Positions 23,480 to 28,550 of a DNA stretch of 42,527 nt are shown in pieces (position 1 is the first letter of the stretch; each line of letters opens with the position of its first letter). The stretch is from Deltaproteobacteria bacterium. Lineage in GTDB: Bacteria; Desulfobacterota; Syntrophia; Syntrophales; Smithellaceae. Position numbers and translations under genes: made by a program. The stretch spans positions 1 through 42,527 of the forward strand of contig JAKLDS010000018.1 of NCBI GenBank assembly GCA_022703375.1, written 5' to 3'. Under the pieces are notes generated by a model, which saw only the letters and a list, made by a program, of their open reading frames with translations, ran no database searches and was not told the DNA's origin.

Positions 23480-23584
23480 CAGATCACCATTTTTTTAATT
23501 TCGTCTGTAAGATATGCATTTTCCCGGATGCTGTCAATATTCAAAATGCATCATCAGCCTTATCATTTTTTTAAGCAGGTTTTT

Positions 23585-23614
23585 TTGACTCTGCCGTTAA
23601 TCATATGATAAAAT
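23585..23614 (+). promoter_or_regulatory. Sigma70 promoter of the DJ-1/PfpI gene
   Basis: TTGACT (23585-23590) and TAAAAT (23609-23614) are 18 bp apart, each matching five of six consensus bases. The leader would be about 30 nt and includes GGGAGA. Confidence 0.55.
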
Positions 23615-23651
23615 GAAGAAAAATATTAAATAATACGGGAGACAATAATTT

Positions 23652-24284
23652 ATGAACTTCGGTTTTTTGATTTTTCCGGACGCGGAAGAGCTTGATTTCA
23701 TCGGCCCCTGGGAGATGATTGCCATGTGGAGCAAATTTGCCCACGGCCCGGAACACCGTCTGATTGTCGCCGCATCCCCGGATAAAGTCGTTTGCGCCAA
23801 AGGCCTGTCCGTCAATCCTCATGCCACCTTCAACACCTGCCCTGCCCTGGATTATTTACTGGTCCCCGGCGGCCAGGGAACAAGAACCGAAGTTAATAAC
23901 GCGCGGCTGATTGATTTTGTTTCCGATCAGGCCATCAACTGCAAAGCCGTTCTTTCCGTCTGCACCGGCGCTTTTATTTTACACCGCGCCGGCCTGCTTT
24001 ACGGCCGCCGCGCCACAACACACTGGAATTCCCTGCAAAGATTGAGGGATTTGGGCGATGTGGAAGTGGTGGAAGAAAGAATTGTCCGGGATGGTATTAT
24101 CTGGACTGCCGCGGGAGTTTCTGCAGGCATTGATCTGGCGCTGGCTTTTATCGCCAATGAGGCCGGAGAAAAAGCGGCGGCCATCGCCCAGTTCAGCGCT
24201 GAATATTATCCGGCGCAGGTCAATTACGGCGATTTGCATAAATCGGAACAGGCCCCGGAATATATAAAAAATCACGGGCATTAA
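23652..24284 (+). CDS. DJ-1/PfpI family protein (class I GATase-like)
   Basis: A 210-aa protein of the DJ-1/ThiJ/PfpI superfamily. The nucleophile elbow SVCTGAF places the reactive cysteine at Cys104, with the N-terminal FPDAEELDFIGPWE segment and YLLVPGGQGTR loop typical of the isonitrile hydratase/transcription-regulator-like branch (TTHWN shortly after the Cys). No DNA-binding domain is attached. Family members include hydratases, glyoxalases and deglycase-like enzymes; the activity here is not predictable. A GGGAGA SD is present. It is divergent from the HExxH gene. Confidence 0.88.
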   Translation: MNFGFLIFPDAEELDFIGPWEMIAMWSKFAHGPEHRLIVAASPDKVVCAKGLSVNPHATFNTCPALDYLLVPGGQGTRTEVNNARLIDFVSDQAINCKAVLSVCTGAFILHRAGLLYGRRATTHWNSLQRLRDLGDVEVVEERIVRDGIIWTAAGVSAGIDLALAFIANEAGEKAAAIAQFSAEYYPAQVNYGDLHKSEQAPEYIKNHGH

Positions 24285-24292
24285 TCCCCAAG

Positions 24293-24416
24293 CAAATCCG
24301 AAAATTATCTGATTTGGAAACTATTCGCGAACTCGCTGCGCTTTTGTTTGCAAAAGGCAAATCTCCATGACAGCTTACCAACGTTGTCCCAGTTGCCTCG
24401 CGTAACCTTCAGGTTA
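24293..24416. repeat. Possible degenerate hairpin array
   Basis: The 240-bp gap holds CAAATC/GATTTG (24293-24298/24311-24316), CTTTTG/CAAAAG (24341-24346/24351-24356) and TAACC/GGTTA (24403-24407/24412-24416). The stretches CTATTCGCGAACTCGC and TCTCCATGACAGCTTACC between them loosely resemble the linkers of the arrays at 7.7 and 29.4 kb. The relationship is uncertain. Confidence 0.35.
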
Positions 24417-24491
24417 TTATGCTATACACTTCGCTCACAAAAACGGAGTTTCACAAATAAATTGGGTGTTATTATTCTCCTAATATTTATC

Positions 24492-24519
24492 TTGCTAAAT
24501 ATATAAAAACTTATATAAT
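24492..24519 (+). promoter_or_regulatory. Promoter of the toxin-antitoxin operon
   Basis: A perfect TATAAT (24514-24519) lies 16 bp after TTGCTA (24492-24497). Transcription would start at about 24526, only 0-6 nt before the first codon, so the toxin mRNA looks leaderless. Confidence 0.55.
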
Positions 24520-24531
24520 ATAGCCGTGGCT

Positions 24532-24846
24532 ATGAAACCCTTAAAATTCGTCGGCTCCAGCTTGGATGATTTGCGGGATTTCCCCGAAGAAGCGCGTCGC
24601 GCTGCCGGTTTTGAACTTCGCGCACTCCAGGATGGATTCGAACCACGTGATTGGAAGCCAGTTGGTTCTGTCGGGCATGGTGCAAAAGAAATCAGAATTC
24701 ATGTGTTGGGCGAGTGGCGAGTTATTTATGTCGCTCAGATTCGTAATGCTATCTATATCCTGCATGCATTTCAAAAAAAGACCCGGAAGACGAGCCAACG
24801 GGATATCGCTTTGGCTCATAAAAGGTACAAGCAAATTGGAGATTAA
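24532..24846 (+). CDS. HigB/Gp49-type toxin (RelE-like family)
   Basis: A 104-aa basic protein of the phage Gp49-like/HigB family. These are RelE-fold ribosome-associated mRNA interferases. Recognisable stretches are DDLRDFPEEARRAAGFELR, KEIRIHVLGEWRVIYVA and the ILHAFQKKTRKT strand-loop followed by DIALAHKRYK. An XRE-type antitoxin gene starts 3 bp after the stop, the usual toxin-first order of higBA. A GTG two codons upstream (24526) is an alternative start. There is no SD, and the TATAAT box places the transcript start at or next to the start codon. Toxicity is inferred from the family. Confidence 0.85.
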   Translation: MKPLKFVGSSLDDLRDFPEEARRAAGFELRALQDGFEPRDWKPVGSVGHGAKEIRIHVLGEWRVIYVAQIRNAIYILHAFQKKTRKTSQRDIALAHKRYKQIGD

Positions 24847-24849
24847 ATT

Positions 24850-25134
24850 ATGAAAAAAACGACTACGACATCATCGGGAAATATATTTGTTGATTTGGGA
24901 TATTCGCCGGACGAGGCCGCCATCTTACAAATGAGAGCCGATTTGATGGCTGATCTCAGGAAGTTCATTAAAGTTAGGAAACTTACCCAGGCCGCCGCGG
25001 CAAAGATTCTCGGCGTCAGTCAATCGCGGGTTTCCGATTTGATTACAGGTAAATGGGAAAGATTCAGTCTGGAAATGTTAATCACACTTGTGACGAAAAC
25101 AGGTATGAACGTTAAGCTGAAGATAGCGGCCTAA
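24850..25134 (+). CDS. XRE-family antitoxin (HigA-like)
   Basis: A 94-aa protein with a helix-turn-helix over residues ~35-75 (LTQAAAAKILGVSQSRVSDL, then ITGKWERFSLEMLITLV). It is of the compact XRE type that pairs with Gp49/HigB toxins, neutralises the partner and represses the shared promoter. It is separated from the toxin by 3 bp, and a strong terminator follows, so the pair is a self-contained two-gene unit. Confidence 0.87.
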   Translation: MKKTTTTSSGNIFVDLGYSPDEAAILQMRADLMADLRKFIKVRKLTQAAAAKILGVSQSRVSDLITGKWERFSLEMLITLVTKTGMNVKLKIAA

Positions 25135-25142
25135 AGACTGAA

Positions 25143-25180
25143 AAGGGGTCAACGGCAGACCCGACCCCTTGTTTTTTCTT
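25143..25180 (+). terminator. Rho-independent terminator of the toxin-antitoxin operon
   Basis: AAGGGGTC (25143-25150) pairs perfectly with GACCCCTT (25163-25170), followed by GTTTTTTCTTT. Confidence 0.8.
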
Positions 25181-25265
25181 TAAAAAACAAAATCTGAGCG
25201 GTTATTGTTTTTTCTGACAGGCAGCCCCAGCCAGGCCAGCGGGTAATCATTTTTCACCTCACCTG

Positions 25266-25451
25266 TTAAGAAAAAACACAGTCGTCACTGCCATATTCGA
25301 GGTGAATGCCAATTCCCTTTTTGCGAAAATTAATGTATGTCACACCCTGTGCACGAAAGGCTTCTGCGCCATTCTCTCGCACCTTCATAATCTTCCATCC
25401 CTCGCTTTGCAGAAAATTTTTAACCACATCCAATTCTTTCATTTCGTCCAT
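25266..25451 (-). CDS. Small hypothetical protein
   Basis: A 61-aa soluble protein with a mixed helix/strand pattern (an amphipathic VVKNFLQSEGWKIMKVREN segment, then VTYINFRKKGIGIHLEYG). It is not recognised. It looks real because AGAGGCG lies at SD distance before the ATG and its composition is protein-like. A start three codons downstream is also possible. The truncated end of the inverted-repeat element copy B lies about 25 bp upstream, so that element may have separated it from its original promoter. Confidence 0.5.
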   Translation of the reverse strand: MDEMKELDVVKNFLQSEGWKIMKVRENGAEAFRAQGVTYINFRKKGIGIHLEYGSDDCVFS

Positions 25452-25475
25452 TTTATCGCCTCTTTGATCTTATTT

Positions 25476-25711
25476 AAAAGTGGCCTTGCGCCAAATCCCT
25501 TTTCGCTGCCGGAAACATTTTGGATCAAATCTAAGGCTCGCTTCAGGCGATTCCAAAACTCGCCCGCGGCTCAAACATTTGGAATCGCTTACCTTCAGCT
25601 TCGCCTTGCTTTGTTTGCCAAAATATTCCCTGATTGGCCGCTCAAAGAATATTGGCGCAGATTAATTCATTGCAATTTAATTATTATTTAAATGTTTGCT
25701 GCCGGAGTAAT
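25476..25711 (-). repeat. MITE-like element, copy B (one end degenerate)
   Basis: About 236 bp homologous to the elements at 4266-4540 and 32184-32459, read on minus. Its right end (25693-25711) keeps the terminal repeat in slightly altered form, and the left end lacks it, so it is probably truncated. The inner arms GCGATTCCAA and TTGGAATCGC form a 10-bp inverted repeat shared with copy C. The rest of the gap up to 25791 is AT-rich and holds nothing recognisable. Confidence 0.75.
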
Positions 25712-25791
25712 AGCTCTTTTACTGCTTTCATTTTAAATTACGGTTCTGAGATTTTTCATTTAAAGAATCTTCTAGTCAATGGCATTCGCCT

Positions 25792-26043
25792 TCATTCATG
25801 CTTTTTTAATTCACATAAAAGAGCATATATCAACTTGGATGTTTTTCCCCTTTCGCTTTTTACATCCATACAGTATGCATGCCCGTAAATTTCGATGTAT
25901 TTTTCAAACAGGGCAATTAATTTTTCCGGATAATTATTTTCAGCTATTTGAGGATTTCTTTTTTTGAAAAGGATTATTCGCCTTTTTAATAAGGCTTTTT
26001 CATATTCATAATAGGATTCGTAATCTTTTCGGGATATTTTCAT
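25792..26043 (-). CDS. Hypothetical 83-aa protein coupled to the HNH nuclease
   Basis: A small, charged, probably all-helical protein (YESYYEYEKALLKRRIILFKK, then YPEKLIALFEKYIEIYG). Its start overlaps the nuclease stop by 4 bases (26040-26043), so translation is coupled. I do not recognise the family. It has no transmembrane segment or metal motif. The fixed pairing suggests an accessory, specificity or neutralising role for the nuclease; this is inference from position only. Confidence 0.6.
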   Translation of the reverse strand: MKISRKDYESYYEYEKALLKRRIILFKKRNPQIAENNYPEKLIALFEKYIEIYGHAYCMDVKSERGKTSKLIYALLCELKKHE

Positions 26044-26630
26044 ATTCGACGCCTCACTTCGTTATGCAATAATTTTTCTATGGAATTTTTCGTTCTTGCA
26101 TCACCATAATGAGCCATTTTGTGGTGATGAGCACAGAGCACTGACAAATTCCATATTCCATCTTCTCCGCCTCTGCACAACGGTATTATGTGATGCACTT
26201 CTATATAACGAGTCCCGTCTTCTCTGAAAAAAGTATTAGTACAATTATTATACAGGCACATATCTCCCAATATTTCTTTTGCCTGTTTTGACCAGGCAAC
26301 ATTTCGCACGTACGTTTCGACAATATATTCTCTTTTTTCCGGAATTTCTTTGGATAAATCTATGGTTTTGGTTTCTTCGGCTTCCGGCGCGAGCAAATCT
26401 ATTCCACGCAATGTGTAGTGTCCGGAGTTATCCAGGAAACTTATCAGCTTGTCGTCTCTTAAAAATTGCAGTTGCTGGCGCACCTTGGCTTCGATATGTT
26501 TATTGTCGGGGCGGAAGTTCAGAAATATTTGTAACTTTGCTCTGAGAAATTCTTGCAGGGAAAATGTTCTTGAGCCGGAATTATTACAATGATCAATTAC
26601 TTGTTGATAAACAAAATCTTTCCATTTCAT
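26040..26630 (-). CDS. HNH endonuclease with N-terminal DpnI-C-like winged helix
   Basis: A 196-aa protein. Residues ~1-76 resemble the winged-helix domain found at the C-terminus of DpnI/Dam-replacing enzymes, with RPDNKHIEAKVRQQLQFLRD then LISFLDNSGHYTLRG. Residues ~115-180 form an HNH/McrA nuclease: IEVHHIIPLCRGGEDG with His146/His147, Asn161 in WNLSVLC and His168-His170 in CAHHHKMAH. Cys125, Cys130 and Cys166 plausibly bind a structural zinc. In DpnI that winged helix reads N6-methyladenine in DNA, so a modification-dependent restriction enzyme is possible. No methyltransferase is nearby. GGTGGAG lies 11 bases upstream, and a palindrome sits at 26671-26683. It overlaps the next gene by 4 bp. 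Confidence 0.82.
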   Translation of the reverse strand: MKWKDFVYQQVIDHCNNSGSRTFSLQEFLRAKLQIFLNFRPDNKHIEAKVRQQLQFLRDDKLISFLDNSGHYTLRGIDLLAPEAEETKTIDLSKEIPEKREYIVETYVRNVAWSKQAKEILGDMCLYNNCTNTFFREDGTRYIEVHHIIPLCRGGEDGIWNLSVLCAHHHKMAHYGDARTKNSIEKLLHNEVRRRI

Positions 26631-26670
26631 CTTTCAACAGCTCCACCGTTAATTGAAATCCTTTTTATTT

Positions 26671-26683
26671 GTAATCGCATTAC
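26671..26683. promoter_or_regulatory. Palindrome upstream of the HNH gene
   Basis: GTAATCGCATTAC is a perfect 5-3-5 inverted repeat centred about 47 bp upstream of the nuclease start. Its position suits an operator, but no clear -35/-10 pair was found beside it. Confidence 0.35.
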
Positions 26684-26749
26684 GATGTTCTCTTACGCTA
26701 TGGAGTGTTGAAAAATAAATTTATGGAACTGTTCAAAAATGCTCAGATG

Positions 26750-26835
26750 CAAGGCGCGCATGGTTCGCAGTTCGACTGGCTCACTGTGACAAATAATCAG
26801 TATAGAGCCTGCCCTGAGTTCGCCGAAGGGCCGCA
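26750..26835. repeat. Direct repeat D, left copy (downstream of mlaD)
   Basis: This 86-bp sequence recurs in the same orientation at 28409-28524. It contains one copy of the 15-bp unit TGGCTCACTGTGACA (with its TTCGAC lead-in) and ends CTGAGTTCGCCGAAGG, a motif like the REP-type intergenic repeats of many deltaproteobacteria. mlaD lies exactly between the two copies. Confidence 0.85.
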
Positions 26836-26893
26836 CAAACAATCCCGATGATTGACGAAGCCAGGGCGGAAAAGAACCCTTTCCGAACGGAAA

Positions 26894-28380: not shown

Positions 28381-28524
28381 TACCCTGAAGGGTACGCGAG
28401 CTCGCAGGCAAGGCGCGCATGGTTCGCAGTTCGACTGGCTCACTGTGACATGGCTCACTGTGACATGGCTCACCATGACAAATAATCAGTATAGAGCCTG
28501 CCCTGAGTTCGCCGAAGGGCCGCA
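28381..28524. repeat. Direct repeat D, right copy, with expanded 15-bp tandem unit
   Basis: 28409-28524 matches 26750-26835 but holds three tandem copies of the 15-bp unit (TGGCTCACTGTGACA twice, TGGCTCACCATGACA once) instead of one. Immediately before it are the palindromes TACCCTGAAGGGTA (28381-28394) and GCGAGCTCGC. It fills the gap between mlaF and mlaD. A reading frame across it is just translated repeat and was not called. Confidence 0.85.
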
Positions 28525-28550
28525 ACAACGAAGCAGGCAGCGCAAGGCCG

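Follow-up and report, generated by a model that had tools for sequence, protein, structure and literature searches.

A 42,527-nt stretch of contig JAKLDS010000018.1 (positions 1 to 42,527) of a Deltaproteobacteria bacterium (Syntrophales, Smithellaceae; GenBank assembly GCA_022703375.1), referred to below as the window, encodes a 196-aa protein that, judged by its sequence, is a compact member of the known wH-HNH kind of type IV (modification-dependent) endonucleases. This placement follows from its alignment with the enzyme HHPV4I, together with the retained residues of its winged helix (wH) and its HNH triad. In our assessment, the protein probably acts as a stand-alone, NTP-independent modification-dependent endonuclease, in which a G6mATC-reading wH domain would be joined to an HNH cutter, and for which the 83-aa product of an overlapping ORF would not be required. 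The wH and HNH architecture is not a new combination, since it has been published already (HHPV4I in 2023; SruGXI and others in 2024). Tests of 6mA-dependent wH-HNH restriction have so far dealt mainly with haloarchaea and a single archaeal virus; our analysis would add a bacterial clade of compact proteins (~196 aa), found in about ten phyla.

Domain architecture of the nuclease

The nuclease gene occupies positions 26040..26630 on the minus strand, as supported by its ORF, by Pfam matches to DpnI_C and HNH, by full-length relatives, and by homology to HHPV4I over both domains. The N-terminal part of the protein matched PF17726 (DpnI_C; E = 4e-12, 46.4 bits against a Pfam cut-off of 23 bits), and the winged-helix domain spans residues ~12 to 73 (26412..26597, minus strand), with K49, R51, Q52, and Q55 as reader residues. 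The C-terminal part matched PF01844 (HNH; E = 3e-6, above the Pfam cut-off), and this domain covers residues ~129 to 175 (26106..26246, minus strand), including the catalytic residues H147, N161, and H170, which are invariant in all 26 rows of the alignment. Conserved residues of the HNH part, encoded on the same strand, suggest zinc binding, the putative ligands being C130, C166, and H169, together with C125 just upstream of the domain. The AlphaFold model of the nuclease (mean pLDDT 91.7; 26-sequence alignment) was compared with solved structures by means of Foldseek, in which the wH part matched DpnI (4esj; 54 columns, rmsd 1.3 Å) and the HNH part matched EcoKMcrA (6ghc). Pfam, AlphaFold, and Foldseek all place a DpnI_C-type winged helix N-terminal to an HNH domain, and PADLOC assigned the two halves of the protein to type IV and DpnI-type restriction models. 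The PD-(D/E)XK domain that is catalytic in DpnI (PF06044) had no match in the protein in the Pfam search, with HNH there instead. These Pfam and Foldseek matches bear out the original prediction of a DpnI-like winged helix combined with HNH rather than PD-(D/E)XK.

Similarity to known modification-dependent nucleases

Among characterized proteins whose sequences were in the searched collections, HHPV4I came closest. A tblastn search of phage records retrieved ORF 6 of Haloarcula virus HHPV4 (381 aa, annotated as an HNH endonuclease), which is the gene described in Lu et al. 2023 (PMC10101028). Pairwise BLAST aligned HHPV4I with the 196-aa nuclease over residues ~3 to 170 (30% identity, E = 2e-18), pairing the helix PDNKHIEAKVRQQLQFLRD of the window nuclease with PDNNHIRAKIRQQLQRLRD. 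HHPV4I (or HhiV4I, of Haloarcula hispanica pleomorphic virus 4) has been experimentally proven to be a G6mATC-dependent endonuclease, and it is crippled by mutation of K197, R199, Q200, H296, N310, and H319 (PMC10101028). In the alignment, the first three of these residues correspond to K49, R51, and Q52 of the window nuclease and the last three to H147, N161, and H170, all six positions being kept. Both proteins are stand-alone and have the wH followed by the HNH domain, with the reader K-x-R-Q and the catalytic H-N-H. HHPV4I differs, apart from the identity of only about 30%, in its additional N-terminal PUA/SRA-like domain, which is dispensable for Gm6ATC-dependent cutting, this requiring the wH and HNH domains (Lu et al. 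2023, PMC10101028).

According to Helbrecht et al. 2024 (PMC11037411), stand-alone wH-HNH proteins are type IV systems with dam+-dependent toxicity. SruGXI, HspR68I, HpaD253I, and the other wH-HNH type IV enzymes in that study resemble the window nuclease, by description, in being stand-alone two-domain proteins without PUA; the tested ones are haloarchaeal and 224 to 283 aa long, whereas the window clade is bacterial, ~196 aa long, and has invariant putative zinc ligands. DpnI carries its wH domain at the C terminus, with a nearly identical recognition helix (KIRQQLQILRD versus KVRQQLQFLRD) and with K229, R231, and Q235 aligning to K49, R51, and Q55 of the window nuclease. This domain recognizes fully methylated ApT in duplex DNA (PMC4117772, PMC11037411). 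DpnI differs in its reversed domain order and in its PD-(D/E)XK catalytic domain, which is itself G6mATC-specific and cuts inside the site. The HNH domain of EcoKMcrA was the best solved-structure match (E = 1e-9 with a single sequence and 2e-13 with a profile) as well as the best Foldseek match, but its reader is an NEco domain for 5mC/5hmC and not a wH.

From HHPV4I and DpnI, we infer for the window nuclease 6mA reading, the GATC context, cutting at a distance, and a metal preference. The N-terminal winged helix would bind double-stranded DNA containing N6-methyladenine without base flipping, fully methylated G6mATC being the most likely mark. Cleavage would fall to the C-terminal HNH domain (beta-beta-alpha-metal, zinc-supported), which would nick or cut both strands at a distance of a few to about twenty bases. 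For this, the enzyme probably forms a dimer between two modified sites, and Mn or Co are probably its preferred metals. Invading DNA with methylated adenine is the probable target. As the host is proposed not to make the target mark, the nuclease would need no cognate methyltransferase.

Distribution of the nuclease family

One genome scan yielded 25 further intact full-length relatives of the nuclease (42 to 72% identity in the alignment), distributed over about ten phyla, including Sumerlaeota, Planctomycetota, Lentisphaerota, Verrucomicrobiota, Pseudomonadota, Ignavibacteriota, Nitrospinota, Zixiibacteriota, Cloacimonadota, and Fidelibacterota. Among 297 genomes from the phylum to which the window belongs, only one has the family. 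Phylum labels are scattered over the nuclease tree, counts alone being no proof of transfer. The spread across about ten phyla and the near absence from the own phylum suggest that the nuclease travels horizontally, and the gene may have been gained in this way as a small accessory gene. No full-length relative was found in the viral contigs searched.

One relative (L034:132-1136) is an in-frame fusion of 334 aa, with a DUF5655 domain ahead of the wH and HNH domains, an architecture that the accessible text of Helbrecht et al. 2024 (PMC11037411) does not mention. Genomes of the window's family also carry a wH-AAA (McrB-like) fusion (L002:556-2616) and a canonical DpnI (L004:907-1677), indicating that 6mA-reading defence recurs in this family.

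Methyltransferases and alternative explanations

No methyltransferase was found near the nuclease in the window, as had been noted, and the genome itself (95% complete) gave 0 matches to PF01555, PF02086, and PF00145 (N6/N4 beta-class, Dam-type, and C5 methyltransferases). It does encode type I-like N6-adenine methyltransferases (matches to PF02384 and PF07669), which means that the nuclease cannot target every 6mA context.

Three loci of relatives could be taken to mean that the protein once belonged to a classical type II restriction-modification system and was orphaned when the methyltransferase was lost: in L010, a 3'-truncated methyltransferase, of which the N-terminal half is left, lies 23 bp ahead of the nuclease start; L031 has a weakly methyltransferase-like fragment; and L032 encodes an N6_N4 methyltransferase some 1 kb downstream of the nuclease. 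The remnant in L010, however, is part of a distinct methyltransferase-PD-(D/E)XK pair. It shares 51% identity with the second methyltransferase encoded on plasmid pSRQ700, the genes of which run in the order Dam-type methylase, second methyltransferase, type II endonuclease; we take this row to have the DpnII/LlaDCHI (GATC) layout, the two-methyltransferase set presumably being LlaDCHI with GATC specificity. In Neisseria (L083), the gene of a homologous methyltransferase, its frame broken in that record, lies immediately ahead of a PD-(D/E)XK gene. The same PD-(D/E)XK gene, cut at its N terminus, comes after wH-HNH and a small ORF (X) in L010:4450-6229, L014:334-1615, and L036:1-1040. The simplest reading, we suggest, is that a unit of wH-HNH and small ORF replaced the inner part of a GATC-type restriction-modification operon, thereby removing the conflicting methylase, and the L010 nuclease, sitting on the remains of a DpnA-like (probably GATC) methyltransferase, looks like a case of avoided genome conflict. 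Furthermore, a methylation-sensitive nuclease would kill a cell devoid of the methyltransferase, yet intact solitary copies are common; an intact methyltransferase adjoins the nuclease gene in none of the full-length relatives, and the type II classes tested are missing from the window's own genome. Upstream of the window nuclease, we saw only a dispersed repeat and no methyltransferase remnant, and this region had no similarity at a credible E-value to the methyltransferase sequences of L010, L031, and L032. An orphaned type II nuclease is thus exceedingly improbable.

We also deem it unlikely that the protein, though a modification-dependent endonuclease of this build, reads a different mark or context, be it 6mA in sequences other than GATC or a hypermodified base of phages. 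Helbrecht et al. 2024 (PMC11037411) put the share of wH fusions with the full GATC motif at only about 10%, the rest being of unclear specificity. The reader helix has diverged in several relatives, with the strict K-x-R-Q motif lost in L019-L022, L029, L030, L033, and L035, so that a single mark for the whole family need not be assumed. In addition, the host genome of L024, a relative with the strict reader motif, encodes a D12 methyltransferase that shares 46% identity with the DpnM-like enzyme of pSRQ700, which represents a possible Dam-like conflict with G6mATC reading and a counter-example to strict avoidance. The window protein, in contrast, retains the whole helix K-x-R-Q-Q-L-Q that is seen in DpnI and HHPV4I, which favors G6mATC as its mark. 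Because the family includes both intact and diverged reader helices, it forms a natural series in which to ask which residues set the methylated sequence that is read.

The 83-aa ORF and other small companions

The nuclease gene shares the four bases ATGA with an ORF of 83 aa (25792..26043, minus strand), the coordinates and overlap being as originally described. The encoded protein is basic (pI 9.3), predicted to be helical, and an ORFan. Given the base composition, the chance of this frame being open is ~0.0007; an SD-like GAGG lies eight bases before its ATG; and its codon score (0.126) is lower than that of native genes, as is that of the certain nuclease gene (0.08). The ORF is probably a real gene, which homology cannot confirm. 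The overlap suggests that it is co-transcribed with the nuclease, and it may be translationally coupled, without being a required partner. We detected no credible homologue of the 83-aa protein in Pfam, PADLOC, NCBIfam, PHROGs, the PDB, plasmids, or IMG/VR, nor in 59 relatives or 24 host genomes, the best E-value (~0.05) covering parts of larger unrelated frames; likewise, none was present at the loci of the 25 relatives, the nearest included. An AF2 single-sequence model was helical and of modest confidence (pLDDT 73.5), and it gave no Foldseek match below E 3.

The original prediction had coupled the two genes in a two-component, modification-dependent restriction system. Its restriction part is well supported by the DpnI-like wH joined to HNH, whereas the coupling is not, because the small gene is not co-conserved with the nuclease, an outcome that the prediction itself had named as its refutation; with no detectable homologue in anything searched, the 83-aa protein is not a conserved partner. 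That this protein regulates or neutralizes the nuclease is very improbable to us, even though the 4-bp overlap and the SD-like site would suit such a role and tightly linked small ORFs recur in other subclades. ORF X is found in L010, L014, L023, and L036, and it seems to move with the nuclease, since its site in L023 differs from that in the other three. ORF Y (conserved, ~65 aa) overlaps the 3' end of the wH-HNH gene, always by 13 bp, at four loci in three phyla (L013:5579-5779, L029:796-993, L030:5579-5773, and L039:251-454), which fall on two distant branches of the nuclease tree. ORF Z is linked to the nuclease in L017 and L018. Profile comparison, however, found no pair related among the 83-aa protein, X, Y, and Z, and many relatives have no small gene, including the closest one (L009, 72% identity). 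As other relatives carry small downstream ORFs of three families (X, Y, and Z) with no sequence relationship, a variable companion is conceivable: the compact bacterial wH-HNH might be a two-gene unit of constant nuclease and swapped overlapping small gene (at least four unrelated kinds), the latter modulating toxicity or range, a proposal we hold to be decidedly unlikely. The accessible text of Helbrecht et al. 2024 (PMC11037411) makes no mention of a small partner, controller, or operon. Our preferred reading remains that of a nuclease acting alone.

Genomic context

The nuclease lies in a 3.4-kb accessory pocket (23480..26893, unstranded) between mlaD and a conserved 179-aa gene, delimited by synteny with the related genomes L095 and L101. 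In L095, mlaD and the 179-aa gene are one gene apart, and in L101, an mlaD remnant adjoins the 179-aa gene; the intervening stretch is therefore accessory, and the toxin-antitoxin-bearing pocket that had been proposed is real. Apart from the wH-HNH and 83-aa genes, it contains a 61-aa ORF, a DJ-1/PfpI protein, and, facing the nuclease, a HigBA-type toxin-antitoxin module of a Gp49-like protein (PF05973) and an HTH_37 antitoxin (24526-25134). The GC content is 0.396 over positions 25135-26893 and 0.389 in the nuclease gene, versus 0.493 for the window.

The 61-aa ORF (25266-25451, minus strand) shows native-like codon use (score 0.315) and had no convincing family match; a weak resemblance to Endonuc-BglII (E = 0.15) probably arose by chance. 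A dispersed repeat occupies the gaps on both sides of mlaD (26700-26850 and 28430-28530) and contains the palindrome GCCCTGAGTTCGCCGAAGGGC at 26811 and 28500. A 15-bp tandem repeat, TGGCTCACTGTGACA, is located at 28436-28473 in the gap beside mlaD.
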